Assembly: GCA_029762625.1 (NCBI GenBank)
Contig: JARVGI010000002.1
Location: 188,772-252,771 of the forward strand
DNA length: 64,000 nt
From: Methanomicrobiaceae archaeon
GTDB taxonomy: Archaea; Halobacteriota; Methanomicrobia; Methanomicrobiales; Methanomicrobiaceae
Reading direction: 5' to 3'
This document shows, piece by piece, positions 366 to 16,152 of this stretch (position 1 is its first letter; every line of letters starts with the position of its first letter). A model generated the notes under the pieces. That model did not search any database, was not told the origin of the DNA, and saw nothing but the letters and a program-made list of their open reading frames with translations. Made by a program: the position numbers and the translations under genes.

Positions 366-608
366 GGCAGGCATCCCCTCGCGTCCCGACGGACACGGCT
401 GCGCACGCCCCGGGCGGATACACCCGGAGATGCCGGCCGTCCGGTGCAACCTGCATCCGCATCTATTTAATGCTTCTCCGGGCTGGCCTCTCGGTCCCCG
501 TCCTGCCCCCCCTGCCTTCCGCCGGGTGCACCGGCGGCTCTTATGTGGTGCACCACCAACATCCTCTAGTACCGGTGTGTGGAATCGCACGGGGAGGAAT
601 TCCGGAGT

Positions 609-1124
609 ATGGACAAGGGATATATTCAGATGTACACGGGCAACGGCAAAGGAAAGACGACGGCGGCGCTGGGAATCTCGCTCCGGTGCGTCTGTGCCGG
701 CAAACGGGTCTTTTTCGGCCAGTTCATCAAGGACTGGGGATATAGCGAACTGAAAGCAGGCATCCTGCTCCCGCAATTCGAGATTGTCCAGTTCGGGCGC
801 GGCTGTTTCATCGACCGCGACCCTGATGAGATGGACGTTGTTGCCGCCCGCGAGGGCCTCGCACGCTGCGACCGGGCCCTGCAGTCTGGCGACTACGACC
901 TGGTGGTGCTCGACGAGGTCAACGTGGCGCTCCATTACGGTCTCTTCGGGGTGGACGAGGTCATTGCCGTGCTGGAGCGGAAGCATCCCCGGGTGGAGGT
1001 GGTGCTCACCGGCAGATATGCGCCGCAGGAGCTGATCGAGGTCGCCGACCTGGTGACCGAGATGCGGGAGGTCAAGCACTACTACCACGAGGGTGTCGGG
1101 GCGCGCGAAGGCATCGAACGCTGA
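609..1124 (+). CDS. cobO: cob(I)alamin adenosyltransferase, CobO/BtuR type
   Basis: The 171-residue protein has an N-terminal P-loop GNGKGKTT at residues 11-18 directly after a beta strand (YIQMYT), the hallmark of the CobO/BtuR/CobA corrinoid adenosyltransferases. It also shows a DLVVLDEVNVAL Walker-B-like segment and VVLTGRYAP near the C-terminus, in the usual order, and the length is normal. It transfers the adenosyl group of ATP to Co(I) corrinoid in the cytoplasm. I chose ATG 609 because the family begins a few residues before the P-loop; an in-frame ATG at 579 would add ten unconserved residues. It stands alone, without other cobalamin genes beside it. Confidence 0.9.
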   Translation: MDKGYIQMYTGNGKGKTTAALGISLRCVCAGKRVFFGQFIKDWGYSELKAGILLPQFEIVQFGRGCFIDRDPDEMDVVAAREGLARCDRALQSGDYDLVVLDEVNVALHYGLFGVDEVIAVLERKHPRVEVVLTGRYAPQELIEVADLVTEMREVKHYYHEGVGAREGIER

Positions 1125-1568
1125 AGGAGCGAGAAGGAGGTCGATGGCCTGTGTGGTGTTCATGGTGGCGCTGGTGTTCGTCGGTCCGCAGCGCACCCGC
1201 CCCCCCCCATTCTGCCCCTTTGCCTCTCCAGGGCGTAATACGGACGATCCGGCTGGCAGGAGCATTCCAATACCTTTTTGAAACCGGATGCCGATTTCTC
1301 TTCAGGAAGGGCCTCTCGGCACTATCTTCCCCCTCCCCCGAGGAAGATTCGAGTGTCGAACCATGTGCAACCTGATTTCAACACCACCCCCAACACAGGC
1401 CATTCATTAACTCTCTTGCCAGTATCTCTCCAGTGTGCCCTTCCTGCCCTATTATTGCGGCGTGTGTTTTGTTGTGCGGCACCCTGGGCCGGCCTCCGGG
1501 GCCCTGCGCAATATTCGGGATGCCGGGAGAGAATGGACCTGCGGGAGAGCGATCCCCCCTGCTCGCAG
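1125..1568. other. Intergenic, no gene recognised
   Basis: 444 bases between the convergent cobO and ABC-2 permease genes. It has a C-rich run near 1200 and frames open only for short distances with no recognisable protein. No tRNA, strong hairpin or repeat was seen. Confidence 0.5.
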
Positions 1569-2324
1569 CTACATTCTCCACGGTATGTTGCGGCGGTGCA
1601 GAACCATCGCTGCAACGGTGAACACAAGGGCGAATGCGGCGAGTGCTCCGATGTCGGCGAGCACCGGGAAATAGTGGGTGCCGGTAAACGAGTACCGGAC
1701 AATATCGACAAAGTAGGTGAGCGGTGAGAAGACCGCGAGCGCCATTCCCCATGCCGGCAGCTGCTCCAGCGGGACGAAGATACCTGAGATGAAGACGAGC
1801 GGGAACTTCAGTAGCGAGGAGAGCATCATGATGTTGGAGGGCACGTTCGTCGGGGGGACGGCGAGGAGTACCCCGAGGGCCGAGAAGCAGAATGCGGCGA
1901 GGAGAACGGCAAAGGCGAGCACGACGCCGTGCAGGAGCGGAAGGCCGAGTGCGAGGGCGATGAGCAGCGGCACCGTCGTGACGCCGATGCCGAAGAGGAC
2001 AGAGGCGATCATGTCCCCGAGGACGATCGCCTCGATGGTCACCGGGCAGGCGGCAAGGCGTTCGAGGGTCCGTGCCTGCCCCTCCCAGGGAAAGATCGCG
2101 GGGGACACGGCGGTCGAGGTGAAGAAAAGGGCCATGCCGGTGAGCCCGGAGAGGAGGAATGCGAGGGGGAGCTCGCGCCCCCCCAGATAGAAGGCCAGGA
2201 AGAGAAAGACCGGCATGAAGACGCCGAAGATGAGCACCGGGCCTTTCAGGTAATAGATGCGGATGTCCTTCTTCGCAATCGCCCATGCCCGGCGGAGCTG
2301 TTCGGGCGCTCCTCGCATGTTCAT
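1569..2324 (-). CDS. ABC-2 type transporter permease
   Basis: A 251-residue membrane protein with an N-terminal cytoplasmic stretch (AWAIAKKDIRIYYLKGPVL) and about six hydrophobic segments. It includes the family's STAVSPAIFPWEGQARTLE loop between helices 2 and 3 and a late LKFPLVFISGIFVPLEQLP segment. This is the ABC-2 exporter architecture, the membrane partner of a DrrA-like ATPase. Its start codon overlaps the stop of the ATPase gene by four bases (2321-2324), so the two are translationally coupled and form one exporter. The substrate (lipid, drug or polysaccharide) cannot be inferred. Confidence 0.87.
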   Translation of the reverse strand: MNMRGAPEQLRRAWAIAKKDIRIYYLKGPVLIFGVFMPVFLFLAFYLGGRELPLAFLLSGLTGMALFFTSTAVSPAIFPWEGQARTLERLAACPVTIEAIVLGDMIASVLFGIGVTTVPLLIALALGLPLLHGVVLAFAVLLAAFCFSALGVLLAVPPTNVPSNIMMLSSLLKFPLVFISGIFVPLEQLPAWGMALAVFSPLTYFVDIVRYSFTGTHYFPVLADIGALAAFALVFTVAAMVLHRRNIPWRM

Positions 2325-3250
2325 GGCCCCTTCTCCCGCGTCAGCTTCAGAAAGACGTCGTCGAGCGACGGGGCGAGGGTCTGCAGGGTGAGGATCGCTG
2401 CGCCGTGGCGGCCGCTGAAGCCCACCAGCGACCTGATGGCCTGATCGGGGTTATCTGCGGTGATCTGCCACTTATCTCCCGTGCGCTCAGCCCCGGCGAT
2501 GCCGTCCAGCGATGCGAGGTCGCCTGCAGGGATCTCGCCGTCGAAGCTCACCTCGATCCGGTGCAGGCGGTCGGTAGCGCTCTTCAGTTTTTCGGGTGCA
2601 TCGATGGCGACGATCCTGCCGCCCCGGATAATCCCGACCCGGTCGCAGAGCCGGTTCGCCTCCGCCATGTTGTGAGTGGTGAGAAAGATGGTGGTCCGGT
2701 CCATGTTCAGCGCACGCAGCATGGAGAGGATCATCCGGGTGCTCTGCACGTCGAGCCCGCTGGTCGGCTCGTCGAGAAAGAGGAGTTCCGGCTCGTGGAG
2801 GAGCGCCATCGCCAGGATGAGCCGTTGTTTCATGCCTTTCGAGTACTCCCGCACCTTCTGATCGCTCCTCCCGGCGAGCCCGAGCGTCTCGAGCAGGTCG
2901 TGCGAACGCCGCTCTGTTCGGGCACGGTCGACCCCGTAGAGCTCGCCCATGAGCATCAGGTTCTGCCATGCGGTGAGATCGACGTACGCATTCGAGGTCT
3001 CCGGCACGACGCCGAACCGCTGCTTTGCCGGGACGGGGTCTGTCCGCACATCATGCCCGAGGACCCTGACGCTCCCGCTGTCCATCGGGATGACGCCGGT
3101 GAGCATCCGGGTGGTGGTGGTCTTTCCCGCCCCGTTCGGCCCGAGGAACCCGAATATCTCCCCTTCCCGGACGTCGAACGAGATGTGGTCCACGGCGGTG
3201 ATGGTGCCGAAGACTTTTGTCAGACCCCTGACTTCGATCACATCACTCAT
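2321..3250 (-). CDS. ABC exporter ATP-binding protein, DrrA/CcmA-like
   Basis: A 309-residue ATPase with Walker A (GPNGAGKTTT, about residues 38-47), a Q-loop region near TSNAYVDL, the signature YSKGMKQRL, Walker B (LLFLDEPTSGLD) and an H-loop (TTHNM). A C-terminal domain of about 90 residues follows, as is usual for DrrA-like exporter ATPases. It energises the permease encoded immediately downstream. The start at 3250 follows a GGGGATG-type ribosome site. The gene is divergent from the HxlR regulator at 3630 and shares its upstream region, so regulation by that protein is plausible but unproven. Confidence 0.92.
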   Translation of the reverse strand: MSDVIEVRGLTKVFGTITAVDHISFDVREGEIFGFLGPNGAGKTTTTRMLTGVIPMDSGSVRVLGHDVRTDPVPAKQRFGVVPETSNAYVDLTAWQNLMLMGELYGVDRARTERRSHDLLETLGLAGRSDQKVREYSKGMKQRLILAMALLHEPELLFLDEPTSGLDVQSTRMILSMLRALNMDRTTIFLTTHNMAEANRLCDRVGIIRGGRIVAIDAPEKLKSATDRLHRIEVSFDGEIPAGDLASLDGIAGAERTGDKWQITADNPDQAIRSLVGFSGRHGAAILTLQTLAPSLDDVFLKLTREKGP

Positions 3251-3629
3251 CGGGTGGCATCCCCCTGCACGCCTTCCCGGATGCCGGTGAGGGACACCTG
3301 CACATACCTGCGGGTGGTGCGTCCTTCACGCGGTATCCTTTCACCGGAATGTGCGATGAGCATTCTTTCATGCCGAATCATCCATTGCAGATGCCTCATG
3401 GCCCAATGTTCCGTCCTTCTCTCGATTTCTGTCCTGTTCTTTCCCTACCAGCTCTCATCCCGGAACAGGAACGGATCGTCTCAGTCGATAAGGTCCCCGG
3501 CGTGCTGCGGCAGGAAAAGACTATTGTTTCTTTCTTGTGTGGGACACGCATTTGTTCGAGCCTCGCGAGAATAAACATTGATATGATAGTAATAGTATTA
3601 TAACTATGTTTATCATAGTATTGTCGTTC
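3251..3629. other. Divergent regulatory region between ABC exporter and hxlR-like gene
   Basis: 379 bases. The half next to the exporter is GC-rich and featureless. The last 60 bases before the regulator are strongly AT-rich (3575-3620), contain the likely promoter of the regulator and the palindrome listed separately. Confidence 0.5.
3603..3619. promoter_or_regulatory. Palindromic operator candidate upstream of hxlR-like gene
   Basis: A perfect inverted repeat ACTATG-N5-CATAGT sits 10 bases before the HxlR-type start at 3630, inside an AT-rich stretch. A second ATGATA motif lies at 3583-3588. Dimeric winged-helix proteins of this family bind such palindromes, so autoregulation is inferred. 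Confidence 0.45.
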
Positions 3630-4049
3630 ATGTGCAGGGATACCGAATCATGCTGCCCGTGTGCCGCAGGAGGCATTCTGGCCCGGGTAGCAAAAAAGTG
3701 GGCTCTCCTCATCATCAACAGGCTGGGCAGTTCCGGCAGGGTGCGCTTCACCGATCTGATGACCGGCGTGGAGGGGATCAATCCCCAGGCGCTCTCTGCA
3801 ACCCTGAGAGAACTCCTGGAAGAGGGATTGATCGGGCGGGAATCCTTTGCGGAAATACCGCCCCGAGTGGAATATTTCCTTACCCCGGAAGGGGATGCTC
3901 TTCGTGAAGCGATCCTTCCGCTGCTGCGCTGGGCATCCCTGCATGATGTCCGGGATCCGGACCGGTGTGCGGCGGTGTGCCGGAGGCGTAGCGGTAACCC
4001 TCGGGGATCGCCCTGTGCACAGAAGCAGCACTCCGATGATAAATCCTGA
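3630..4049 (+). CDS. HxlR-family winged-helix transcriptional regulator
   Basis: A 139-residue protein with the HxlR core: KKWALLIINRLG (helix 1), VRFTDLMTGVEGINPQALSATLRELLEEGLI (helix-turn-helix) and the wing PPRVEYFLTPEGDAL. The N-terminus carries a C-x6-CC-x-C cluster (Cys 2, 9, 10, 12) and the tail has further cysteines. Several HxlR/DUF24 proteins sense oxidants or electrophiles through an N-terminal cysteine, so redox or metal sensing is a reasonable inference here. I chose ATG 3630 because the hydrophobic residues upstream are not part of the family and the operator would otherwise lie inside the gene. The gene is divergent from the ABC exporter. Confidence 0.88.
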   Translation: MCRDTESCCPCAAGGILARVAKKWALLIINRLGSSGRVRFTDLMTGVEGINPQALSATLRELLEEGLIGRESFAEIPPRVEYFLTPEGDALREAILPLLRWASLHDVRDPDRCAAVCRRRSGNPRGSPCAQKQHSDDKS

Positions 4050-4264
4050 CCCCAGAAAAACTCCCGGTTGGCGGCATCCGGGTTTTCCCTCAGAGAATGT
4101 TTTACGGAATTACTCCATGGGGAAATGCCTGGAATATATAAAAACGGCAAGAATCTTTCATATTTAGTAATTTTAATTCTTATATTATTGTTACTTATTC
4201 TATCAAAATAATGGATCAATAACCTTATGTATGCTATTTACATTGTTTGGTATGTATGAATGTG

Positions 4265-5428
4265 ATGAATCGTTCTATTTATGTCACTCTCCTTGGCATG
4301 ATCCTCGTCGGGCTCCTTGCCGTCGCCGGGTGCGTCGACGATACCCGGCAGGGTCCCGATGCAACGCCGACCGTACCTGCAACGCCCTCAGAACTCACCC
4401 TGACCGACGGCTTCGGCCGGAGCGTCACCGTGCCGGTGCCGGTCGAGACGGTTCTCTGTTCGGGCTCGGGCTGTATCCGGTACCTGGTGTACCTGCAGGG
4501 TGAGGACCTGATCGCCGGTGTCGACAGCATCGAAAAGGAGGGGCGCTCGCCCGAAGGCCGCCCGTATGCGCTGGTTCACGGAGACTGGCTGAAGGATCTC
4601 CCGCTCTTCGGCGAGTTCCGGGGCAAGGATGATCCCGAGAAGGTCATTGGAATCGGGCCTGATCTTGTCTTCAAGACCGGCTCAACCGGAACGGCGTACG
4701 GGACAAGCGGGGCCGAGGCCGACACCCTCCATGATAAGACCGGCATCCCGGTCGTGGCCTTCCCGTACGGATCGCTCCGCAACGAAGCCGAGAAAGTAGA
4801 GATGTACGATGGTCTGCGAGTGATGGGCGAAGCCATCGGCAGGGAAGACCGGGCCGAAGAGGTGATCGCGTATATCGAGGCGACCATGGCGGACCTCGAG
4901 CGGCGCACCGGGGACATCCCTGCGGAAGAACGAAAGCGGGTGTATATCGGCGGCGTTTCCTCGGCGGGCGCGCACGGCATCATCTCAACCGAGCCCGCCT
5001 ACCCGCCCTTCCTCTGGGTGCATGCAGACAATATCGCGTCCGGCCTCGGCACCGCCCACGTCGATGTCGCCAAGGAGGCGCTCGTCGACTGGGATCCCGA
5101 GTACATCTTCATCGATGCGGGGACGCTCCAGATGGACAATGAAGGCGCCATCGGGCAGTTGAAGACGGATCCGGCACTGCGGGGTCTTTCAGCGGTGAAC
5201 GAGGGCAACGTCTACGGTGTGCTCCCCTACAACTTCTACAATGTCAATTATGAGACCGTGTTTGCGGATGCGTATTTCATCGGCAAGGTGCTCTACCCCG
5301 ACCGCTTCGAGGACATCGACCCGGAGGAGAAGGCCGACGAGATCTTTGCCTTCTTCGTGGGTGAGCCGGTCTTTGATGACATGAACAGCGGGTTTGGGGG
5401 TATCGGGTTTTCGCGCATCCCCGTCTGA
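4265..5428 (+). CDS. ABC transporter substrate-binding lipoprotein, FepB/BtuF-like
   Basis: A 387-residue exported protein. The signal peptide ends in a lipobox (LLAVAGC, Cys about 23), followed by a Thr/Pro linker and a periplasmic-binding fold of the helical-backbone class. Recognisable parts are LTLTDGFGRSVTVPVPVETVLC at the start of lobe 1, GIGPDLVFKTGS, and a second lobe with DWDPEYIFIDAG and AVNEGNVYGVLPYNF. A CSGSGCIRYL motif near the domain start resembles archaeal metal or metal-chelate binding proteins. It would hand its ligand to the permease at 5934. Upstream in-frame ATGs at 4247 and 4256 are possible starts; there is no clear ribosome site. Confidence 0.87.
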   Translation: MNRSIYVTLLGMILVGLLAVAGCVDDTRQGPDATPTVPATPSELTLTDGFGRSVTVPVPVETVLCSGSGCIRYLVYLQGEDLIAGVDSIEKEGRSPEGRPYALVHGDWLKDLPLFGEFRGKDDPEKVIGIGPDLVFKTGSTGTAYGTSGAEADTLHDKTGIPVVAFPYGSLRNEAEKVEMYDGLRVMGEAIGREDRAEEVIAYIEATMADLERRTGDIPAEERKRVYIGGVSSAGAHGIISTEPAYPPFLWVHADNIASGLGTAHVDVAKEALVDWDPEYIFIDAGTLQMDNEGAIGQLKTDPALRGLSAVNEGNVYGVLPYNFYNVNYETVFADAYFIGKVLYPDRFEDIDPEEKADEIFAFFVGEPVFDDMNSGFGGIGFSRIPV

Positions 5429-5933
5429 TTGGTTGCTGCCGGTTCGCACGGGATGGAGAAGGCACTCTCCTTCCCCTGTATACGCGTCGAAACCTGCGGA
5501 CAGGCCATGACCACCGGTCGTCCGGGCTCCCTTCCCGCCGCTGTCCGGTCGCGCGACAGCCGGGGCGAGTGAAAACGGCGGGGCGGTATGCTTTCCGCCT
5601 CATCCGTCCCGCGAACCACGACCGGATCAGGGGAGAGATGCACGCGATCCGCCGTTCGGCTGTATCACAGTGCGGGTCGCACGAACAGGGGATTGTGGCG
5701 CTCCGGTGCACACATCGTGGTGCGCAGTGGCGGGAATGCGCCGTTACGGCTCCGCTTCACGCGAAGATTCATAAGAGATTGGAAATACGTAGTCTTATGT
5801 ACTCGTTCATCTAAAATACATCAGATGAAGTATGATATATTTATATATTCGTAGTCGTACCCCTCCTCTCATGCGGAACCAGCAGCCTGAGGATTCTGTC
5901 ATGATGAACCGGAACGGGGGGGGGTGATCCCCG
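5429..5933. other. Intergenic between binding protein and permease genes
   Basis: 505 bases without a convincing gene. The first 350 bases are GC-rich with only short open frames. The last 130 become AT-rich and contain the TATA-like element listed separately, so permease, ATPase and FmdE genes probably have their own promoter. Confidence 0.5.
5836..5849 (+). promoter_or_regulatory. TATA-like promoter for permease-ATPase-fmdE transcript
   Basis: The run ATATATTTATATAT is the most TATA-like element in this intergenic region. Transcription would start near 5873 and give a leader of about 60 bases that includes the GGGGTGATC ribosome site just before GTG 5934. Confidence 0.45.
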
Positions 5934-7004
5934 GTGCACTTCGCCGACGGAGAACTCCCGCAGGATTATCTCGGCTACACCTACCGGAAGGTGCTCTTGA
6001 TCCTCGGGGGGGTCGTTGCCCTCTTCTTCCTGCTCATTATCTCGATCTCGGTCGGCGCGGTCTCAATTCCTCCGTATGAGGTCTTTATGACCCTTATCGG
6101 GCAGAACGTCACGGACAAATGGGACCGGATCATATGGAACATCCGCCTGCCGCAGGCGCTCACCGCGATCGCCGCCGGGGCCGGCCTCTCGGTCGCCGGC
6201 GTCGCCATGCAGTCGATCCTCAGGAACCCGCTCGCCTCACCGTTCACGCTCGGTATCTCGAACGCAGGTGCATTTGGTGCTGCGGTTGCGGTCATCATCT
6301 TCGGCACAGGCAGGATGACCTCGACGACTGCCGGTGCGGTCGTCATCAACAACCCGTACCTGACGACGATCGTCGCTTTCGCCTTCTGTATGCTTGCAAC
6401 GATAGCGATCCTCGGCATCGCAAAGATCAAGGCATCATCACCGGAGGTCGTGGTCCTTGCCGGCGTTGCCCTTTCGTCCCTGTTCACCGCCGGCGTGATG
6501 TTCCTCCAGTACTTTGCCGATGACACGCAGCTAGCGGCAGTGGTCCACTGGACATTCGGCGATGTCGGGAGGGCGGGATGGTCGGAGTTCTCCCTGATGG
6601 CGGTGATTACCATCGCCGCCTGCATCTACTTCATCGCAAACCGCTGGAACTATAATGCGATGGATGCGGGGGACGAAACCGCCAGAGGGCTCGGTGTCAA
6701 TGTGGAGCGGCTCAGAAACGCCGGGATGGTCGTCGCCGCACTCGTCACGTCGGTGCTCGTCTCATTTCTCGGGGTGATCGGTTTCGTGGGGCTCGTCTGC
6801 CCGCATATGGTGCGGCGGGTCATCGGGGACGAGCAGCGGTACCTGATCCCGGGCTCCATCGTGATGGGCGCCCTTCTGCTGCTCGCGTCCGATACGGTCG
6901 CCCGCCTGATCGTGGCGCCGTATGTCCTCCCGGTCGCCATCCTCACTGCATTCATGGGGGCGCCGATTTTCATCTACCTGCTTCTCAGGGGCTACCACCG
7001 ATGA
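5934..7004 (+). CDS. FecCD/BtuC-family ABC importer permease
   Basis: A 356-residue polytopic membrane protein with around ten hydrophobic segments. Family landmarks are RLPQALTAIAAGAGLSVAG, MQSILRNPLASPFTLGISNAGAFGA, LAGVALSSLF, WTFGDVGRAGW, DETARGLGVNVERLR and IGFVGLVCPHMVRRVIGD near the C-terminus. This is the type II importer permease fold used for siderophores, cobalamin, haem and molybdate/tungstate. It starts with GTG 5934, preceded by a strong GGGGTGATC ribosome site. It overlaps the ATPase gene by four bases. Confidence 0.94.
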   Translation: MHFADGELPQDYLGYTYRKVLLILGGVVALFFLLIISISVGAVSIPPYEVFMTLIGQNVTDKWDRIIWNIRLPQALTAIAAGAGLSVAGVAMQSILRNPLASPFTLGISNAGAFGAAVAVIIFGTGRMTSTTAGAVVINNPYLTTIVAFAFCMLATIAILGIAKIKASSPEVVVLAGVALSSLFTAGVMFLQYFADDTQLAAVVHWTFGDVGRAGWSEFSLMAVITIAACIYFIANRWNYNAMDAGDETARGLGVNVERLRNAGMVVAALVTSVLVSFLGVIGFVGLVCPHMVRRVIGDEQRYLIPGSIVMGALLLLASDTVARLIVAPYVLPVAILTAFMGAPIFIYLLLRGYHR

Positions 7005-7843
7005 TCCTCTCTGTCGACGAACTGAAGTTTCTGTACAGGAACACGAATATACTCGACGATATCGCGTTTTCCATCTCGGAAGGCGAGATCGTTGCGATTC
7101 TCGGGCCAAACGGGGTCGGAAAGACGACACTCCTGAAATGTCTGAACCGTATCCTGGTGCCGAAGGAGGGTGTCGTCACGGTGGGCGGCGATCCCATCGG
7201 CTCACTCGAGCTGATGGAGGTCGCTCGGCGGATCGGCTATGTCCCCCAGCGGGTCGAGACCGGCAGGCTGACCGGGTTCGATGCGGTGCTCCTTGGAAGG
7301 CGGCCGCATATCGGCTGGGATATCACCGAGAAAGACCTCCGGATCGTCGATGCTGCTTTTAAAAAATTCATGATCGACCACCTCCGCCTCCACTCTATCG
7401 ACGAGATGAGCGGGGGGGAGCTCCAGCTGATCGCAATTGCACGGGCCTTTGTGCAGGAGCCGAAGATCCTCCTCCTCGACGAACCGACGAGTGCGCTTGA
7501 CCTGAAAAACCAGGTTGAGATCCTGGACCGGATCCGGAATATCGTGACCGAGCACCAGATCGCAGTGGTGATGACCATGCACGACCTCAATACCGCGCTC
7601 CGGTATGCGGACCGGTTCATCTTCCTCAAGGACCAGTCTATCCATACCTACGGCGACAAGAGCGTCATCACTGCGGATGAGATCGAAGCGGTGTATGGCG
7701 TGCCGGTGATGATCGGTGAGCTCTGGGGGGTCCCCTGCGTCATCCCTGAGTGCCTCTGCAACGGAAATGGAAAAACCAAAAGAGAAGATAATCAGGAACA
7801 CTCATCTATGAGGGAAGGAAGTGCCTATGTGCGATACACATGA
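7001..7843 (+). CDS. FepC/BtuD-type ABC importer ATPase
   Basis: A 280-residue ATPase with Walker A (GPNGVGKTT, about residues 36-44), Q-loop (YVPQRVE), signature MSGGELQLIAIARAF, Walker B (ILLLDEPTSALD) and H-loop (TMHDLN). The last 40 residues are polar and vary in this family. The start overlaps the permease stop (ATGA). The stop lies inside the next gene, encoding an FmdE-family protein, so the three are one transcription unit. It powers import with the permease and, presumably, the lipoprotein at 4265. Confidence 0.94.
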   Translation: MILSVDELKFLYRNTNILDDIAFSISEGEIVAILGPNGVGKTTLLKCLNRILVPKEGVVTVGGDPIGSLELMEVARRIGYVPQRVETGRLTGFDAVLLGRRPHIGWDITEKDLRIVDAAFKKFMIDHLRLHSIDEMSGGELQLIAIARAFVQEPKILLLDEPTSALDLKNQVEILDRIRNIVTEHQIAVVMTMHDLNTALRYADRFIFLKDQSIHTYGDKSVITADEIEAVYGVPVMIGELWGVPCVIPECLCNGNGKTKREDNQEHSSMREGSAYVRYT

Positions 7844-8483
7844 ACAGACAGGAGCCACCGGAGCCGGGGGGTATCCCTCCTTTGAAGAATGCGTCACGTT
7901 TCACGGGCATGTCTGCCCAGGGCTCGCCACCGGCTACCGCGCTGCTGTTGCTGCGATGCAGGCACTGGGCGTGGCCCGGCCGTACGATGAAGAGCTGGTG
8001 GCGATCGCGGAGACCGATGCCTGCGGTCTGGATGCCATCCAGATGGTGACCGGCTGCACCGCCGGGAAGGGCAACCTCGTGGTAAAGGATCACGGGAAGC
8101 ACGTGTTCACGTTCATCTCCCGGGAGAATGAAAAAGCCGTCCGGGTGCTGGTCCGCCACCGCGATACGCCGGAATATTCGGAGATGAATGAACTCCGCAA
8201 GAAAATTGTTACCGGGCGGGCGGACGCTGCGGACCACGAGCGGTTCCACGAGCTGATGCATGCGGCGGCGGAGCGTATCCTGACGGCGCCCTCTGACGAG
8301 GTAATAGAAATCCGCGACGTCGATGCCGAGCCTCCGGCCAAGGCGCGGATCTTTGCATCGGTCGTCTGCGCCTGCTGCGGCGAGCAGGTCGCCGATGCGA
8401 AGACGCGCCTCCTCGACGGCAGGCAGGTCTGTATTCCCTGCTACGAGGCGGTCCGTTCCCCCGGCCGCCCAGAGGCGGGATGA
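7827..8483 (+). CDS. FmdE-family protein with C-terminal zinc ribbon
   Basis: A 218-residue protein. The N-terminal FmdE domain shows FHGHVCPGLATGYRAA (about residues 26-41) and ETDACGLDAIQMVTGCTAGKGNL, with the conserved His and Cys residues likely to bind metal. The C-terminus has a four-cysteine ribbon (CACCGE ... CIPCYE). FmdE was named from formylmethanofuran dehydrogenase operons but its role there is unsettled. Here it overlaps the importer ATPase by 17 bases, which suggests a link with metal or oxyanion supply. ATG 7827 is preferred to GTG 7821 because an AAGGAAG ribosome site lies eight bases upstream. Confidence 0.9.
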   Translation: MCDTHEQTGATGAGGYPSFEECVTFHGHVCPGLATGYRAAVAAMQALGVARPYDEELVAIAETDACGLDAIQMVTGCTAGKGNLVVKDHGKHVFTFISRENEKAVRVLVRHRDTPEYSEMNELRKKIVTGRADAADHERFHELMHAAAERILTAPSDEVIEIRDVDAEPPAKARIFASVVCACCGEQVADAKTRLLDGRQVCIPCYEAVRSPGRPEAG

Positions 8484-8551
8484 AGAAACTCTCCTCTTGT
8501 GTCCCGGGTCAAAAAAGCCCTCACCGGTTCTCGGCTGATCCGGCATACGCG

Positions 8552-8558
8552 TTTTTTT
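8552..8558 (+). terminator. T-run terminator after the fmdE gene
   Basis: A run of seven T about 70 bases after the stop codon on the plus strand, typical of archaeal oligo-T termination. It lies in the gap to the convergent antiporter operon. Confidence 0.5.
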
Positions 8559-8624
8559 GAATCACCGATACCGTGGTGATTCCAGATACACGATACCCCG
8601 GATCCCGCCGGTTACGTCCCCCGC

Positions 8625-10421
8625 TCACCACAGGAGATCGAAGATGAAGTACAGGAAGGCGACGATGCTGACGAAGACGAGGCCGTATCCCCCGCCCCAG
8701 ATACCGATCTGTTCGTCCGGGTACCTGCGCCTCATCCCTGCAAGCGACTCTTCATACGCTTCTGCCGCCTCTCGATTGGCGAACGCCCTGACTACGGGCA
8801 GCCCAAGCGTCATCCCTGCGATCCGGAAGGCGACGGGCGGGTTGGCCGACACCCGTTTGAGAAACCCGATGATAATATCCAGAATCCGCCCGATCGCATC
8901 GGCAGCCTGAACCATTGGACCGGCGGAGAACCAGGCGACGCCTCTTCCCGCCGCGATGTAGAGGTGGTCGACATCTGCCTCCCATCCCCGCCCCGGGGAC
9001 CGCAACGGCCGCAGGAGGAGGATCAGGACGCCTGCTGCGAGAAAGATTGCGGCCGATTCGGCAAGGTGCGCGGGGGAGAACGGATGGGCATGCGTCCCGC
9101 CCGGCAGGAGATCTGTCAGGAGATCGGGAACGAGCCCTATTGCAATGCAGAGGATGGCGGCAAGTGCCATTCCCGCAAGCATCGGGGCCGGCGGATCACG
9201 CGGGACGAGTTTTGTTTCCGTCTGCGGGGCGGGGCGGAAGAAGACCAGATAGAGGAGACGGCTGACATAGATGACGGTGATCACGGCGGCGAGCAGGAGC
9301 GCTTCTGAGATGTACGGCACTCCTGCTGTCGCCTCGATCACCATGCCCTTGCTCACCGCCCCGTTCAGGCCCGGCAGCCCCGCAAGCGCAAATCCGCCGA
9401 TAACGGCACAGGTGGCGGTGAGGGGCATGGACCGGCCAAGGCCGCCGAGTTCGGAGAGGCGGGACGATCCGGTCCGGTAGATGACCGCGCCCGCCGCCAT
9501 GAAGAGGAGGGACTTGAAGAGGATGTCGTTGACCATATGCGCAAGGCCGGCATCGATCCCGGCGGCCGTTCCCGCGCCCATGGCCGCGACCATATAGCCA
9601 ACCTGGCTGATGATCGAGTAGGAGAGCAGGCGGCGAATATCGTCCTGCAGGAGGGCGAAGATCGCCCCGTAGATCGCCATCGCCGCCCCCATGTACGCAA
9701 CTGCGGCGCCCCACCCGCCGACGGCGGCGAGCAGGAAGACCGCCGCCTTGGTGGTGAAGATGCAGAGCGCGACCGATCCTGCGACCGACGCCCTCGGGTA
9801 GGCATCCGGCACCCATGTATGGAGCGGGACGAACGCGGCGTTCACCCCGATCCCGACCAGCATGAGGAGGAGCCCACCCCCTTCTGCCGCGGGGCCGATG
9901 GCAGCGCTCCCCGATGCGATCACCGTCCACGCGATCCCGCCCAGCAGGCAGGCCCCCCCGAAGATGTGGAAGAGGAGGTACCGGTACCCCGCACCGGCGG
10001 CGCCGGGCGCCCCTGACGACCAGATGATGCAGAGCGATGCAAGGGCGAGAAGTTCCCAGAAGACAAAGACGGTGATGAAATCACCGGCGTAGACGATCCC
10101 GAGGGTGGCGCCGATCGACGCCAGTATCCCGATCGTCTCGACCGCCGGGATCTCGCTGTATGCTGCATAGATGATCGCGATGAGGCCTGCCAGCGCGAAG
10201 ATGCACCCTGTAAGGGATCGCATCGGGTCGACCAGCAGGAGGACCGTTTCGACCCCGGGCAGGATCGAAATGGACAGCGACGAGGAGGGTGCGAGGGCGA
10301 GGGCTGCACCGAGGCCGGCGGCCCCGACGATGACGGCCCACGCGTTCCGCACCCTCCCCGGGAGGAACACTGCGGGGAGGAGCCCGACAAGGCAGATGAG
10401 TCCGGGCGGGATCGCGATCAT
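8625..10421 (-). CDS. Mrp/Mbh antiporter subunit, MrpD/NuoL-like (third copy)
   Basis: A 598-residue membrane protein, last gene of the antiporter operon. It contains the proton-pumping-Nqo family core: FVFWELLALASLCIIW, ITVFV, LHTWVPDAYPRASVAGSVAL, LLQDDIRRLLSYSIISQVGYMV and a KSLLFMAAGAVIYRTG segment. Conserved charged residues of the antiporter channel (Glu in FWELL, Lys in TTKAAVFLLA) are present. About 120 extra C-terminal residues include a soluble stretch and a final helix. ATG 10421 overlaps the preceding stop by four bases; the open frame upstream of it is not coding in character. Confidence 0.9.
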   Translation of the reverse strand: MIAIPPGLICLVGLLPAVFLPGRVRNAWAVIVGAAGLGAALALAPSSSLSISILPGVETVLLLVDPMRSLTGCIFALAGLIAIIYAAYSEIPAVETIGILASIGATLGIVYAGDFITVFVFWELLALASLCIIWSSGAPGAAGAGYRYLLFHIFGGACLLGGIAWTVIASGSAAIGPAAEGGGLLLMLVGIGVNAAFVPLHTWVPDAYPRASVAGSVALCIFTTKAAVFLLAAVGGWGAAVAYMGAAMAIYGAIFALLQDDIRRLLSYSIISQVGYMVAAMGAGTAAGIDAGLAHMVNDILFKSLLFMAAGAVIYRTGSSRLSELGGLGRSMPLTATCAVIGGFALAGLPGLNGAVSKGMVIEATAGVPYISEALLLAAVITVIYVSRLLYLVFFRPAPQTETKLVPRDPPAPMLAGMALAAILCIAIGLVPDLLTDLLPGGTHAHPFSPAHLAESAAIFLAAGVLILLLRPLRSPGRGWEADVDHLYIAAGRGVAWFSAGPMVQAADAIGRILDIIIGFLKRVSANPPVAFRIAGMTLGLPVVRAFANREAAEAYEESLAGMRRRYPDEQIGIWGGGYGLVFVSIVAFLYFIFDLLW

Positions 10422-11908
10422 GGCACCACTCCTGTCGTGATCTCGCCGATGGCGATCCGGACCAGGTCCATGAATGGCACCGAAGGGAAGAAGAATATCA
10501 GCATGGAAATCACCGCAGTCAGGACGATCGGGACGAGCATCGTCAGGGGAGGCTCGGAGACGGCATCGAGTGCGTGCGGGTCGGCGGGCCGGTCGACCAG
10601 CATCGTGTAGATGATCGGGAAGAAGTACGCGGCATTCAGGACCGCGCTTATGATCAGGACGACGAGGAGGATAGGCATCCCGCCCTCGACCGCCCCGATC
10701 GCAAGATAGATCTTGCTGATGATGCCGCAGAGCGGGGGCAGGCCGCAGATCCCGACGGCCGCCACCGCAAACATCAGGGCGGTCACCGGCATCTTTTGCC
10801 CGAGGCCTTTCATATCGGAGATGCGCTCTCTGCCTGCAGCGACAATGACCGCGCCTGCGACAAAGAAGAGGGTGATCTTCATGAAGGCATGGAAGGGAAT
10901 ATGCGCCATCGCCCCGGTCATCCCGGCGACGGAGAGCATCGAGACGCCGAGGAGGATGTAGGAGAGCTGGCTCACCGTCGAGTAGGCGAGCCGCCGTTTC
11001 AGGTTGTCCTCGCAGAGCGCGAAGAGGGACGCCGTGACGATGGTGAACGATGCGATCACGGCGAGCACCACGCCGAGGCCGAGCGATGCCATCAGGGTCA
11101 TGCCAAAGACCCACCCGGCCACCCTGACGATCCCGAACACACCGGCGGTCACCACGGCGACGGCGTGGAGGAAGGCGCTCACCGGTGTCGGGGCGATCAT
11201 CGCCGCCGGAAGCCAGGCGTGGAGGGGCATCCATGCCGCCTTCACGAACCCGACCATGAAGAGGCCGAAGAGGATCTGCAGGGTGAGCGCCGCCCCCGAT
11301 CCCGCAAGGAACCCTCCCGGCACGAACGCCGTCGTCCCGGTCAGGATATAGGTCAGGACGGTTGCGGCAAGCAGGAATATCCCCCCGACCAGGAGGTAGG
11401 TGAGGTACTTTCTTCCCGCCTTCATCGCTTCAGGCGTCTCGATATGGACGACGAGCGGGTAGGTGATGACGGTCAGGATCTCGTAGAACACGAACAGCGT
11501 CACGAGGTTTGCCGAGAACGCAATCCCGATGGCCGCGGCGATTGCGACCGCGAGGCAGAAGAAAAACCGCGTCTGGGCGTGCTCTTTCAGCGCCCGCATG
11601 TACCCGATCGCATAGAAGGAGTTGAGGAGCCAGAGGGCTGCTGCGGTGAGGGCGAAGACCATCCCGAAGGCGTCGACCCTGAGGGCGAGATCGCCGCCCG
11701 GCACCATGGGCAGGAGCACGAGGGTGAGCCTGCCGCCGTCGAGGATCGACGGCAGCATCGCAAGGACTGATCCGAGCATTGCCATCGCGGCGGCGATGGT
11801 GACACTCTCCCGCAGGTTCTCGTGCCGGCCCGTGATCAGGATCAGCACCGCCGCAAGGAGCGGGATGGCGATGGTGACCGCCGGGAGAAGTCCGGAGACA
11901 TCCGGCAT
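10418..11908 (-). CDS. Mrp antiporter subunit, MrpD/NuoM-like (second copy)
   Basis: A 496-residue polytopic protein with the MrpD/NuoM/NuoN core: LVTLFVFYEILTVITYPLV, MPLHAWLPAAMIAPTPVSAFLHAVAVV, CEDNLKRRLAYSTVSQLSYIL and HAFMKITLFFVAGAVI. It belongs to the cation/proton antiporter modules that also drive complex I and membrane-bound hydrogenases. The start at 11908 was chosen because it lies one base after the preceding gene and begins directly with the first membrane helix. Confidence 0.92.
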   Translation of the reverse strand: MPDVSGLLPAVTIAIPLLAAVLILITGRHENLRESVTIAAAMAMLGSVLAMLPSILDGGRLTLVLLPMVPGGDLALRVDAFGMVFALTAAALWLLNSFYAIGYMRALKEHAQTRFFFCLAVAIAAAIGIAFSANLVTLFVFYEILTVITYPLVVHIETPEAMKAGRKYLTYLLVGGIFLLAATVLTYILTGTTAFVPGGFLAGSGAALTLQILFGLFMVGFVKAAWMPLHAWLPAAMIAPTPVSAFLHAVAVVTAGVFGIVRVAGWVFGMTLMASLGLGVVLAVIASFTIVTASLFALCEDNLKRRLAYSTVSQLSYILLGVSMLSVAGMTGAMAHIPFHAFMKITLFFVAGAVIVAAGRERISDMKGLGQKMPVTALMFAVAAVGICGLPPLCGIISKIYLAIGAVEGGMPILLVVLIISAVLNAAYFFPIIYTMLVDRPADPHALDAVSEPPLTMLVPIVLTAVISMLIFFFPSVPFMDLVRIAIGEITTGVVP

Positions 11909-11909
11909 C

Positions 11910-13403
11910 TCAGGTACCCCCGAGGAGCTGGGCCACTGCAAGGCCGATGGTTTCCAGCGGGGCCGCCACGAAGATGCCGAGGAGGAGGCAGAGGAGGGAG
12001 AGGCCTATTGTGGGGGCGAGCATGGAGGCCGGGCCTTCACGGCCCCCGGTCCGGTGGTGTTCGTCATGGTGGCCCCCGAAATAGGCGATCTCGATGAACC
12101 GCCAGATATACGCGGCCGCAAGCAGGCTTCCGACGAGGAGCACCGCGGCATACGGCCAGAGTCCTGCCTCGAATGCCCCGAGGACGAGGTAGTACTTGCT
12201 CATAAAGCCGATCGTGGGCGGGATCCCGATCATCGATGCGCCGGCGAGCGCAAACGCGGCACAGGTCAGGGGCATTTCCCGTGCGATGCCCCCGAGCTCG
12301 CTCAACTGTGCGGTCCCCGTCCGGTAGATGATCAGGCCGGCAACCATGAAGAGGCAGCCTTTCATCACTGCATGGCCGAGGATATGCAAAAGGCCGCCTT
12401 CGAGGGCGATCCGGTTTGCCACGCCGATGGCGAACATGATGTACCCGATCTGGCTGACGCTCGAGTACGCGAGCAGCCGTTTGAGATCGTCCTGCGCGAT
12501 CGCAAGGATGGCCCCGGCGACGATCGCGATCGTGGCGATGAGCAGGACGACCCCGGTCACCGGGTAGCTCTCGGTGATGTATGCCATGGTAAAGACCGAG
12601 AAGAGGAATCGGAAGAGCGCGTACACGCTCACCTTCGCCATTACGGTGGCGATCAGCACCGTCACTGCGGACGGGGACTCGGTATAGGCATCGGGGAGCC
12701 AGAGGTGGAGCGGGAAGAATGCCGCTTTGATGGAGAAGCCGATGATCAGGAAGAGAAAGGCCGCGTGCACGGTCGCAAGATCGTATGATGCGGGAAGCAT
12801 CACGGCGAGCTCCGCCATATTGAGCGTTCCGGTGGCGACGTAGAGGTTCCCGATCCCGAGGAGGATGAACCCTGCGGCGATTGATCCGAGGACGAGGTAG
12901 TTGTAGCTCGCTACATACGAATGGGGTTTCCTCGTTGCCGAGATCAGGGTGTAGGCGGCGATCGACGAGATTTCGAGGAAGACGTAGAGATTGAAGACGT
13001 CTCCCGTGATCGTCATGCCGATGAGGCCGGCCAGGAGGATCTGGAATATGACATAGAAGGAGACCGTCTTTTCAGCCGGGACCTCCTTCTTGACGCTCCG
13101 GAAGGCATACAATGCGGTCATCAGGGCGAGAAGCATGATTGTGGCCAGGATGAACCCGCCGAAGGTGTCGATGACGAGTTCTATCCCCATGGGCGGTGCC
13201 CAGCCCCCCACATAGTACCGGACGGTTCCGCCGTCCATCACCTGCCGGAAGATGACGATCGCGGCTGCGAACTCCCCGAGGACTGCCGCAAGCGTGATCG
13301 GGTAGCAGAGCCTGCGGTCGTGCCAGCCCGCGACAAGGGTCAGCAGGGATGCGACAATCGGGCCCGCGACCAGGAGGACCGGGAGGTGGTCGATCAGGGT
13401 CAT
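11910..13403 (-). CDS. mnhD: Mrp antiporter subunit D (MrpD/MnhD-like)
   Basis: A 497-residue polytopic protein that follows MrpC, the usual place for MrpD. Motifs are NLYVFLEISSIAAYTLIS, FPLHLWLPDAYTESPSAVTVLIATVMAKVSVYAL, AQDDLKRLLAYSSVSQIGYIM and HAVMKGCLFMVAGLIIYRTG. It is expected to exchange Na+ and H+ across the cytoplasmic membrane as part of the Mrp complex. Its start and the MrpC stop share one base. Confidence 0.93.
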   Translation of the reverse strand: MTLIDHLPVLLVAGPIVASLLTLVAGWHDRRLCYPITLAAVLGEFAAAIVIFRQVMDGGTVRYYVGGWAPPMGIELVIDTFGGFILATIMLLALMTALYAFRSVKKEVPAEKTVSFYVIFQILLAGLIGMTITGDVFNLYVFLEISSIAAYTLISATRKPHSYVASYNYLVLGSIAAGFILLGIGNLYVATGTLNMAELAVMLPASYDLATVHAAFLFLIIGFSIKAAFFPLHLWLPDAYTESPSAVTVLIATVMAKVSVYALFRFLFSVFTMAYITESYPVTGVVLLIATIAIVAGAILAIAQDDLKRLLAYSSVSQIGYIMFAIGVANRIALEGGLLHILGHAVMKGCLFMVAGLIIYRTGTAQLSELGGIAREMPLTCAAFALAGASMIGIPPTIGFMSKYYLVLGAFEAGLWPYAAVLLVGSLLAAAYIWRFIEIAYFGGHHDEHHRTGGREGPASMLAPTIGLSLLCLLLGIFVAAPLETIGLAVAQLLGGT

Positions 13404-13777
13404 CAGCCCCTCACCGCCTCTTTGAGCTCGTCCTCATCGATGACGCCGTACTCCTCGTAGATCCTGACGACGAGGGAGAGGGCGACGGCGGTGATGCTCA
13501 CCCCGACGACGATCGCCGTGAGGATCAGGACATGCGGCAGCGGATTGACGTAGACGGCGGATGCCCCGTCCGGGAGATAGATGGGTGCGGTGCCCCCCTC
13601 CACACTCGCGACCGAGATGTAGAAGAGGAAGATTGCCGTCTGGAAGATGTTGAGCCCGATAATCTTCTTCACCAGGTTCTGCTTTGCGATCAAGGCGTAC
13701 AGCCCGATCAGCATCAGGATGATCGCCATCCAGTAGTTGTACCGGGCGAAGAAGAGTTCGGAGAACGCCTCAATCAT
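13403..13777 (-). CDS. mnhC: Mrp antiporter subunit C (NuoK-like)
   Basis: A 124-residue protein with three membrane helices, homologous to NuoK: YNYWMAIILMLIGLYALIAKQNLVKKIIGLNIFQTAIFLFYIS and a final PHVLILTAIVVGVSITAVALSLVVRIYEEYG. Length and order after MrpB and before MrpD are as in bacterial mrp operons. It overlaps MrpB by four bases. Confidence 0.93.
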   Translation of the reverse strand: MIEAFSELFFARYNYWMAIILMLIGLYALIAKQNLVKKIIGLNIFQTAIFLFYISVASVEGGTAPIYLPDGASAVYVNPLPHVLILTAIVVGVSITAVALSLVVRIYEEYGVIDEDELKEAVRG

Positions 13778-14205
13778 GCGGATCTGCCCCCCCGATTGGC
13801 CATATCGTAGATGATCGAGGTCATCACCGCCATCACGGTGATCCCGATCCCGGCTTCGACGAGGTCGATGAGGTATCCGTGGAGGTGGGGGATGCCGAGT
13901 GCTGCCTCGATCACCCCGTACTCCAGGAAATTGCCTGTGTAGAGAATGCAGAGAATGCCGACCCCGGCAAAGATCGCGATCCCCAGCGCCGAGCAGATCA
14001 TGGTCCCCCTGCTGCCGATCCTCCGCCGTGTGTAGGCGAGGTCGAATGCGATCGTCATCAGGATAAATGACGAGGCGAAGACGACCCCTCCCTGGAATCC
14101 CCCCCCGGCTCCGGATGCGCCGTGCACGATGACATAGAGGGCGAAGATCTGGATGAACGGAACCGCCAGGCGAACGACCGTCCTGATGACGACATTCTCT
14201 CTCAT
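13774..14205 (-). CDS. mnhB: Mrp antiporter subunit B
   Basis: A 143-residue protein with four membrane segments and the MnhB signature HGASGAGGGFQGGVV near residues 29-43, followed by helices ending in DLVEAGIGITVMAVMTS. MrpB is a structural and channel-lining subunit of the Mrp complex. It overlaps both neighbours by four bases (14202-14205 and 13774-13777). Confidence 0.92.
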   Translation of the reverse strand: MRENVVIRTVVRLAVPFIQIFALYVIVHGASGAGGGFQGGVVFASSFILMTIAFDLAYTRRRIGSRGTMICSALGIAIFAGVGILCILYTGNFLEYGVIEAALGIPHLHGYLIDLVEAGIGITVMAVMTSIIYDMANRGGRSA

Positions 14206-14477
14206 AGCCGGCCTCCCCGGCGGAGGAGGAGGATCACCGACATGCCGGCGGTGAAGATGACCACCACCTCCCCGAACGTGTCAAACCCGCGGTAACTTGC
14301 CAGTATTGCGGTGACGATATTATCGATCCCGACATCGGCATAAGACCGTTCGATGTACATCGCGCCGGTGTGCCGGGTTGCCGGGCTCTCGGGGTCGCCG
14401 AATGCCGGCATGTCCTCGACCGCCCAGAAGAGGATGATGCCGATGAAGATAACTGCAATAAGTGCTTTTTTCCTCAA
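14202..14477 (-). CDS. MbhE-like small antiporter subunit
   Basis: A 91-residue protein with an N-terminal helix (ALIAVIFIGIILFWAVED), a short outside loop, the segment DNIVTAILASYRGFDTFGEVVVIFTAGMSVILLLRR and a basic end. The GFDTFGE motif is shared by MbhE of archaeal membrane-bound hydrogenases and by the C-terminal region of bacterial MrpA. It is therefore a split-off MrpA C-terminal module. Confidence 0.85.
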   Translation of the reverse strand: MRKKALIAVIFIGIILFWAVEDMPAFGDPESPATRHTGAMYIERSYADVGIDNIVTAILASYRGFDTFGEVVVIFTAGMSVILLLRRGGRL

Positions 14478-14719
14478 TCTGATGAACTCCTGGTGGTTCG
14501 TGCAATGGCGGCGATGAAGAGGACGGTGGTAATCCCGGCACCCACCGTCGCTTCGGTGAAGGCGACATCGACGGCATTCATCAATGCCCAGAGTACTGTC
14601 ATGATCAGCGAGTATCCGGCGAGAATGATCGTGGCATGGACAAGATCCCGCACGGTGATCGCCGCAATGGCGCAGCAGATCATGAACAGGAGGAGCGCAA
14701 AGTCAAGTTCCCAGATCAT
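14474..14719 (-). CDS. MbhD-like small antiporter subunit (DUF4040)
   Basis: An 81-residue protein with three helices: WELDFALLLFMICCAIAAITV, DLVHATIILAGYSLIMTVLWALM and AFTEATVGAGITTVLFIAAI. The DLVHA and AFTEA.VGAG motifs are those of the DUF4040/MbhD family, equivalent to another part of the bacterial MrpA C-terminus. The start at 14719 overlaps the MrpG stop (ATGA). The stop overlaps the next gene. Confidence 0.87.
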   Translation of the reverse strand: MIWELDFALLLFMICCAIAAITVRDLVHATIILAGYSLIMTVLWALMNAVDVAFTEATVGAGITTVLFIAAIARTTRSSSD

Positions 14720-15024
14720 TGCCTCTCCTCTCCTTTTTTCCAGGGTGCAATGTTGCGCGAATGGGCGACATTGACCAGCGAATGGACTGCGGTCGGCGAG
14801 GTGATGAAGATGAAGATCACGAGGAGCAAAAGCTTGACCGCGATCAGGGTCATCCCTTCGAAGAGGATGAACCCGACGAGCATCATCCCCTCGCCGAGCG
14901 TATCGCACTTGCCGCTTGCATGGGCGCGGGTATAGAAATCGGGAAGCCGGATCAGGCCCACCGCCCCGACGACCATGAAGAACAGGCCTATCGCGATGAA
15001 GATGAGTGCGAGCGTGTTCAGCAT
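14716..15024 (-). CDS. mnhG: Mrp antiporter subunit G
   Basis: A 102-residue protein with the MnhG/PhaG pattern: a first helix, then GLIRLPDFYTRAHASGKCDTLGEGMMLVGFILF, a third helix and SPTAVHSLVNVAH at the C-terminal end. The motif spacing is exactly that of bacterial MrpG, which is needed for complex assembly. The gene overlaps MrpF by seven bases. Confidence 0.93.
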   Translation of the reverse strand: MLNTLALIFIAIGLFFMVVGAVGLIRLPDFYTRAHASGKCDTLGEGMMLVGFILFEGMTLIAVKLLLLVIFIFITSPTAVHSLVNVAHSRNIAPWKKGEERQ

Positions 15025-15281
15025 ATGCAGCCCCTCCTGAGGTATTTTGCGATTGCGAGCGTGGCGATGAAGTTGATCATCGCATAGACGATCGAGATGT
15101 CCATGAAGATCGGGCGTTCGTAGAGGAATCCGATGATGACGAGGAGGATGATCGTCTTGGTCCCGACGGTGTTCACCGCGATCAGGCGGTTCTCAACGCC
15201 GGGGCCATAGAGCACCCGGTAGAGGCAGAGGAAGATCGTCAGGATCAGGATGATCGCGCTTGCCAGAAAGATATCGTTCAT
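15018..15281 (-). CDS. mnhF: Mrp antiporter subunit F
   Basis: An 87-residue protein with three helices and the MnhF core YRVLYGPGVENRLIAVNTVGTKT followed by RPIFMDISIVYAMINFIATLAIAKYL. It overlaps MrpE by four bases and MrpG by seven. MrpF is a small membrane subunit of the antiporter. Confidence 0.93.
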   Translation of the reverse strand: MNDIFLASAIILILTIFLCLYRVLYGPGVENRLIAVNTVGTKTIILLVIIGFLYERPIFMDISIVYAMINFIATLAIAKYLRRGCIC

Positions 15282-15796: not shown

Positions 15797-16152
15797 TGCA
15801 TACGCCCCCGTCGTAATGATATTCTCTACCTAAATTGGATGGTGACTGACATAAATCTATATTCTTGATCGCCGGGTCTGTCTCGGAACAGATCCTGCAA
15901 TCGCAGGAAAAAAGACGCCGGAGGGTTGCATGGTTCGTTGTTTCCGGCAGCGTCCGGGGCCTGCAGGCGACGGTGCGGCTCCTCCCGGCGCATCGCAGGG
16001 ATCCGGGCCGTAACCGGCCCCGGGAGACGAATTTGCGCGCCGGCACCCGAACCGGCGCTGACATCCTCCCGCGATGCAGGCACGCGGAACGATCGCGGCT
16101 CCCTGTGGCCGTGTTGGAGACGGGTCCGGCCCGACCCGGGAAAAAGAGGATA
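15797..16152. other. Intergenic between antiporter operon and serpin gene
   Basis: 356 bases. The part next to mnhE is AT-rich (about 15830-15870) and is the likely promoter of the antiporter operon on the minus strand. The remainder is GC-rich without a recognisable gene. A T5 run on the minus strand at 16140-16144, just after the serpin stop, may end serpin transcription. Confidence 0.45.

Follow-up and report, generated by a model that had tools for sequence, protein, structure and literature searches.

Importers of the FecCD class have been described with different cargoes: NiuBDE of Helicobacter pylori (FecD/FecE/CeuE) takes up nickel and cobalt (PMC5140060), and MolBCA of Haemophilus influenzae (HI1470-1472) molybdate and tungstate. 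Here we analysed a FecCD-class locus in a 64,000-nucleotide stretch of contig JARVGI010000002.1 from a Methanomicrobiaceae archaeon (the window), in which the importer genes overlap a gene for an FmdE-family protein (Pfam PF02663). Like NiuBDE, this importer belongs to the FecCD class and has a separate binding protein, but the passages on NiuBDE mention no FmdE partner (PMC5140060). We propose, with about even confidence, that the locus encodes a dedicated importer of nickel, with cobalt a close second, and that FmdE is its cytosolic metal acceptor.

The FmdE family is known from three structures. The structure report, in its sections on the metal site, describes an N-terminal domain whose metal ligands are a His-x-His-x-Cys motif and a distal Cys; the site held Zn and Ni in 2GLZ (Desulfitobacterium) and Zn in 2GVI (Thermoplasma), while 3D00 (Syntrophus) had no metal in this domain and lacked two of the ligands (PMC2954224). 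In 2GVI, an unexplained density 1.8 Å from the metal-ligand cysteine, in a 30-Å cleft, was modelled as an unknown ligand (PMC2954224). The same sections state that most PF02663 genes adjoin metal-ion transporter genes and name regulation, metal sensing and metal-ion transport among the possible roles (PMC2954224). A study of archaeal gene fusions describes a fusion of FmdE with a tRNA methyltransferase domain and, in the passage concerned, reports that FmdE was not seen in the solved complex (PMC11237513). The link between PF02663 and transporters was published in 2010; new here are the split of the family by metal site and gene context and the link to nickel. Among the papers found in an open-access library, none proposes a nickel role for FmdE in its title or abstract opening, nor do the passages on FmdE in some of them, although the structure report gives a mixed Zn/Ni site.

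Gene overlaps, an invariant metal site and a two-domain importer clade

The host genome is 2.2 Mb in size, and the closest named relatives found are Methanoculleus. The locus comprises the following features.

4265-5428, plus strand: FecB/BtuF-class substrate-binding lipoprotein (Pfam Peripla_BP_2, 2.4e-17; best solved relative 2ETV)
5770-5799, no strand: perfect inverted repeat CATAAGA-N16-TCTTATG upstream of the permease, a possible operator (conserved in three genomes)
5836-5849, plus strand: TATA-like promoter stretch before the permease (from the sequence; mostly kept in the three-genome alignment)
5934-7004, plus strand: FecCD-type permease (Pfam FecCD, 9.3e-88; member of the FmdE-linked clade)
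7001-7843, plus strand: importer ATPase (Pfam ABC_tran, 6.7e-31; 4-nt overlap with the permease gene)
7827-8483, plus strand: FmdE-family protein (Pfam FmdE, 6.2e-46; zf-dskA_traR, 5e-08)

All four reading frames are open at these positions. Permease, ATPase and binding protein score above their Pfam cut-offs and are encoded together, as in type II (FecCD/BtuCD-type) ATP-binding cassette (ABC) importers. The overlap of permease and ATPase genes is ATGA, and that of ATPase and FmdE genes is 17 nt for a start at ATG 7827; a start at GTG 7821 would lengthen it to 23 nt. An earlier note on this DNA had reported the 4- and 17-base overlaps and described the importer as coupled to FmdE; the overlaps are borne out by the coordinates and join permease, ATPase and FmdE, but the lipoprotein gene stands outside, its end 505 nt from the permease gene, with the repeat and the TATA-like stretch in the gap. 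The permease start codon is GTG, preceded by GGTGATC, which we take to have a ribosome-binding-like role. At its C-terminus (7730-7765), the ATPase carries a Cys-containing tail, VPCVIPECLCNG (PECLCNG), that is confined to a sub-branch of the relatives.

Membership of the window protein in the FmdE family is clear (156 bits against a gathering cut-off of 22.9). Its N-terminal domain carries His26, His28 and Cys30 (7902-7916) and Cys66 (8022-8024), and its C-terminal domain a C4 zinc finger (Cys181/184/202/205, from 8367); all eight residues are invariant in 10 aligned sequences, the window protein included. The first matches of its AlphaFold2 model (predicted local distance difference test [pLDDT] score, 80.7) are 2GVI, 2GLZ and 3D00, with a Foldseek value of 7.4e-14 to 2GVI, and all three have the fold in common with it. 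The His-x-His-x-Cys motif and the distal Cys align with the Zn/Ni ligands of 2GLZ, which places the protein in the His-His-Cys-Cys (HHCC) subclass, and 2GVI has the same ligands; 3D00 lacks two of the four that the window protein retains. The C-terminal finger is shared with 2GVI and 3D00, while 2GLZ has a single domain, and the finger of 2GVI is made of three Cys and an Asp rather than four Cys. The suggestion of the earlier note that FmdE is a metal-binding partner of the importer fits this conservation.

The partnership extends far beyond the host. Of 60 genomes from the host and its kin, 53 carry PF02663 and 55 FecCD. In loci of the host's order, a FecCD permease lies within 6 kb of 28 of the 58 FmdE domains with a complete metal site, against about 1.6 expected from FecCD density when relatedness is ignored; this is the adjacency count that the earlier note had recommended. 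We placed 70 permeases on a tree. Of these, 40 have a complete-site FmdE no more than 3 kb away; the other 30, which include further FecCD systems of the host's order, have none at that distance, and 20 of the unlinked regions were picked by hand. One clade (support, 100/99; 40 rows) holds 37 of the 40 FmdE-linked permeases and three others, and it contains archaea as well as Bacillota (ten permeases). The tree requires seven label changes compared to 22.7 after shuffling, and none of 500 shuffles was as low. Exceptions are L050, L095 and L096, which are linked but outside the clade, and L090, L174 and L196, which are inside it with FmdE not within 3 kb. Fragments shorter than 220 residues were excluded, and loci L063 and L095 overlap, so that one permease is included twice. 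The position of several long branches, such as L044, L050, L141, L150 and L157, is unsure. The earlier note would have given up its proposal if no relative had kept the neighbourhood, which is conserved even across archaea and Bacillota. On these sequence grounds we read the FmdE-linked permeases as a dedicated importer subfamily across the two groups.

Two forms of FmdE in different gene neighborhoods

We aligned 158 FmdE domains from 148 loci and read the four ligand positions; 157 domains in 147 loci remained after a duplicate (L004, on the same contig as L048) was dropped. The loci were chosen from among the matches listed and comprise mostly the best FmdE of each relative, some paralogues, one FecCD locus, and high-scoring plus some low-scoring matches; the name FmdE comes from the fmdECB operon of Methanothermobacter, whose protein lies outside this sample. 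The gene caller and most context profiles were home-made, and some loci stop at contig ends, where neighbours may be hidden. The His-His-Cys-Cys site was complete in 129 domains and incomplete in 28, the latter being mostly archaea of the host's own phylum because low-scoring Bacillota FmdE was left out.

The genes found within 6 kb differ with the state of the site. Complete-site domains had a FecCD gene nearby in 47 of 129 cases and incomplete-site domains in 2 of 28, while the picture was reversed for molybdopterin oxidoreductase (2 of 129 versus 23 of 28), FwdA (0 of 129 versus 8 of 28) and MoeA (0 of 129 versus 7 of 28). The molybdopterin contrast withstood clustering at 75% identity (2/87 versus 17/20) and at 60% (2/42 versus 9/12; p = 2e-06), and the FecCD contrast was 33/87 versus 2/20 at 75% (p = 0.017). 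In the L162 locus, checked with Pfam, FmdE is followed by polyferredoxin, amidohydrolase, GXGXG (below its cut-off) and molybdopterin proteins. FmdE of such formylmethanofuran dehydrogenase operons shares the Pfam family and the zinc-finger motif with the window protein but has an incomplete site (H-F-T-C in L162) and, unlike the window protein, sits among these enzyme genes. The host itself has an FmdE paralogue, on contig C28, beside a molybdopterin oxidoreductase, an FrhB/FdhB protein, a TrmO-FmdE fusion and MoeA. The window FmdE lies outside any such operon: no fmd or fwd gene was found among the 16 other window proteins scanned (579-18670), and no FwdA or molybdopterin profile match was found within 6 kb of it. 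In the control genome of Methanocaldococcus jannaschii, also a methanogen, there was no PF02663 match.

A further form of FmdE, with the motif IHGH[YF]CPGSALGV, was seen in L095, L096, L098 and L101. In L095, L096 and L101 it lies beside a protein of about 1360 residues, which in L096 consists of BcrAD_BadFG and DUF2229 (Pfam); in L095 and L096 this form lies near a FecCD importer of another clade.

Complete-site FmdE is also linked to genes of nickel and cobalt metabolism. At least one of FecCD, CbiM, SBP_bac_5, CooT and CobN lies within 6 kb of 68 of the 129 complete-site domains, or 78 if a hydrogenase profile is added; for this profile (HydL), NiFe motifs were checked in two loci, and 7 of its 14 loci come from one genus. 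Among the 41 Bacillota complete-site domains, the home-made profiles found FecCD within 6 kb of 11, an SBP_bac_5-like protein of 11 and CbiM of 7; these importer types are unrelated, but nickel or cobalt is a possible cargo of each. Five SBP_bac_5 proteins were compared with NCBIfam models, and each had NikA or CntA as its top model, always far below the cut-off. CobN lies within 6 kb in 5 of the 129 cases, and once, in L044 (binding protein-permease-ATPase-CobN-FmdE), it stands between the importer and FmdE. In the passages on it in a 2025 proteome study, a CobN homologue of M. marburgensis reached a high level only under nickel limitation (PMC12350162). CooT binds nickel (Kd, 9 nM) and is linked to CO dehydrogenase maturation in the sections concerned of its report (PMC6006190). 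Across 199 Bacillota genomes, FmdE was found in 76 and CooT in 64 (both in 54, FmdE only in 22, CooT only in 10, neither in 113), and CooT lay within 5 kb of FmdE in 11 compared to 0.32 expected by chance, a figure that uses all listed matches, assumes 2.8 Mb where the genome size was lacking and ignores relatedness. CbiM was also found beyond the 6-kb limit, at 6-9 kb, in L073, L081 and L088, and well within it, at 2.6 kb, in L143, a locus of the same order counted with the phylum set. In seven loci of one genus (L070, L072, L075, L080, L082, L083 and L086), complete-site FmdE adjoins an Ech-like hydrogenase operon, and in L082 both NiFe cysteine motifs are present (Pfam NiFeSe_Hases).

The neighbours were also tallied by family, with 119 proteins from Bacillota and a few other genomes chosen from 167, archaeal and near-duplicate loci excluded. 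The 25 most frequent of 120 families included FecCD, DUF3842 and Peripla_BP_2 (8 each) and SBP_bac_5, CbiM, CbiQ, PDGLE, CooT and DUF4198 (5 each); in L007, CooT and DUF4198 are a single protein. In the NCBIfam tally of the same neighbours, ABC ATPase models filled the top 25, which made it uninformative on the cargo. DUF3842, in this set beside FmdE as often as FecCD (L109, L102 and six more), is a candidate partner.

The imported metal and its competitors

In the proposed mechanism, the lipoprotein would capture the metal outside the cell, probably as a complex, and the permease and ATPase would move it inward. FmdE, its synthesis tied to that of the importer by the overlapping genes, would act as a dimer that binds the ion, once released, at its open His26-His28-Cys30-Cys66 site and hands it over to the assembly of nickel or cobalt enzymes; the C4 zinc finger would serve for structure or docking. 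A more corrinoid-like permease/ATPase pair and the tungstate ATPase WtpC are encoded elsewhere in the genome, which is one point in favor of nickel or cobalt over corrinoids and over molybdenum and tungsten (Mo/W). Methanogens depend heavily on nickel, and methyl-coenzyme M reductase, hydrogenases and CO dehydrogenase would be the customers to be supplied.

Several observations weigh against this proposal. FecCD is not within 6 kb of 30 of the 58 complete-site domains of the host's order, and for 51 of the full set of 129, no gene of the six types sought was found in that range. Within 6 kb of the window FmdE, no CbiM, CooT, CobN or hydrogenase gene was found, and in the loci of the host's order, CbiM is that close in 1 and CooT in 0 of 58 cases. 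The only archaeal CbiM scanned, in L073, passes cobalt CbiM models, which speaks against nickel in particular. Against the 28 incomplete-site domains, the contrasts for individual nickel and cobalt genes are not significant, those genes pooled without FecCD reach no more than p = 0.04 after clustering at 75% and p = 0.14 after clustering at 60%, and the FecCD contrast falls to 16/42 versus 2/12 at 60% (p = 0.3). The permease of L044 is outside the main clade. The 2GVI structure, as its report describes it, contained Zn plus an unknown adduct near Cys61 (PMC2954224). Invariant Arg, Tyr and Asn residues in the lipoprotein homologues point to a chelated or anionic ligand. Finally, the best solved relative of the lipoprotein (2ETV, 9.2e-74) is presumably TM0189 of Thermotoga maritima, and the T. 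maritima control genome has no PF02663 match; FmdE is therefore not a necessity for an importer of this kind.

The ligand residues also bear on a different cargo, as the conserved Arg and Tyr would suit an anionic complex. A FecCD system could bring in a siderophore- or haem-like complex from which FmdE binds or helps release iron, and we regard this as unlikely, if less so than the other competitors. The top permease matches among solved structures are the hemin permeases 5b57 and HmuU (4g1u), and the depositors of 2ETV called it an iron(III) binding protein. The HHCC site, however, has been seen with Zn and Ni in the structures reported (PMC2954224), and the 25 most frequent neighbour families include CooT and CbiM but nothing specific to iron besides the FecCD importer. 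Alternatively, FmdE might not be an acceptor at all but an enzyme, whose Cys66 centre acts on the imported chelate, or a regulator whose zinc finger reports metal status. The unexplained density at the metal cysteine of 2GVI, the authors' mention of regulation and metal sensing (PMC2954224), the finger itself and the 51 domains without a sought neighbour would all agree with such a role. The invariant ligands fit binding equally well, and we know of no catalytic assay or DNA-binding evidence for FmdE, which counts against this explanation; we find it quite improbable.

The version of the earlier note, import of molybdate or tungstate that feeds a Mo/W enzyme through FmdE, appears very improbable to us. 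It rests on the family name, and the FmdE found near enzymes of this type, in clusters for formylmethanofuran dehydrogenase or resembling those for formate dehydrogenase, nearly always has an incomplete site. Since the contexts split by metal site, the inference from the name applies to the incomplete-site form, and we rejected it for the window locus. Some paralogues, including one in the host, do have Mo/W-type enzymes as neighbours, and one of the two complete-site domains near a molybdopterin oxidoreductase (L065) is also beside FecCD. MolBCA is of the same class as the window importer, but the hemin permeases outscore its permease (4.7e-40), and in the search with the lipoprotein profile MolA (HI1472; 7.8e-21) comes after five other distinct sequences. 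Two WtpC ATPases are above the NCBIfam cut-off elsewhere in the genome. Least probable of all is an importer of cobalamin or another corrinoid, suggested by an ATP:corrinoid adenosyltransferase gene in the window (579-1124; above its NCBIfam cut-off) and by BtuC as the top NCBIfam model for the permease. The permease is far below the cut-offs for a BtuFCD-type system (187 against 461 and 204 against 334), as is the ATPase (190 against 537). The host's other permease/ATPase pair also falls below them, so this test is not sharp, but that pair scores far higher with the models for archaeal BtuC and corrinoid ATPase (334 and 341 bits) than the window pair does (187 and 190). Moreover, among the loci examined the adenosyltransferase was found only in L074 and is not a conserved neighbour of the importer.

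The proposal of a nickel or cobalt importer can be widened, though we find the wider form somewhat doubtful: complete-site FmdE may serve anaerobes in general as a cytosolic acceptor of nickel (or cobalt), ancient enough that both archaea and Bacillota have it and working behind at least three unrelated importers (FecCD, NikA-like Opp and CbiM with its energy-coupling factor [ECF]), with the incomplete-site sister form turned to Mo/W enzymes. If this wider form is true, the FmdE-linked FecCD clade would be an undescribed nickel/cobalt importer subfamily that is easily taken for an iron importer. The proposed importer and acceptor would also correct the inference drawn from the name, as complete-site FmdE is rarely beside the namesake enzymes of the family in our sample. 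A 2011 genome review of Methanothermobacter, in the passages concerned, states that the nickel ABC transporter had yet to be identified, with one CbiMNOQ set as a proposal (PMC3087415), and the corresponding passages of the 2025 proteome study name two possible nickel transporters, both of them at higher levels when nickel was limiting (PMC12350162). A coupled importer and cytosolic acceptor would be a further concrete candidate for nickel uptake in methanogens.

Lipoprotein, upstream repeat and neighboring genes

The lipoprotein has a lipobox (LLAVAGC; Cys codon at 4331-4333). The CSGSGC motif to which the earlier note drew attention is present at 4457-4474, separate from the lipobox, and its counterpart reads CSGSGG in L011, AIGPGA in both Desulfosporosinus homologues and AVGPGA in 2ETV. 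Because the residues differ among these homologues, we regard it as a variable loop and rejected it as a metal motif. The AlphaFold model of the lipoprotein (pLDDT, 48.5) was discarded, and our literature search found no paper on TM0189 or 9HRJ.

The inverted repeat at 5770-5799 has perfect 7-nt arms and a 16-nt spacer, and both it and the TATA-like stretch, which resembles the archaeal TATA consensus, are conserved when three related genomes of the host's group are aligned. The host genome has the repeat in exact form only once, and a search of the window with three mismatches returned only this site, with 0.96 matches expected by chance at that tolerance. Regulation of the NikR type was considered, as E. 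coli NikR sites have a spacer of the same length and the host genome encodes one NikR, but there is no second exact copy of the repeat in the genome and none in the other loci examined outside the close group. The repeat is a possible operator.

Downstream of FmdE, the minus strand encodes a run of membrane subunits like those of Mrp/Mnh-type antiporters or membrane-bound hydrogenases (8625-15796; Pfam Proton_antipo_M three times, Oxidored_q2, MnhB, MbhE and MNHE). Further on, at 16153-17343, this methanogen genome carries a full-length serpin, a serine protease inhibitor (Pfam, 1e-113).

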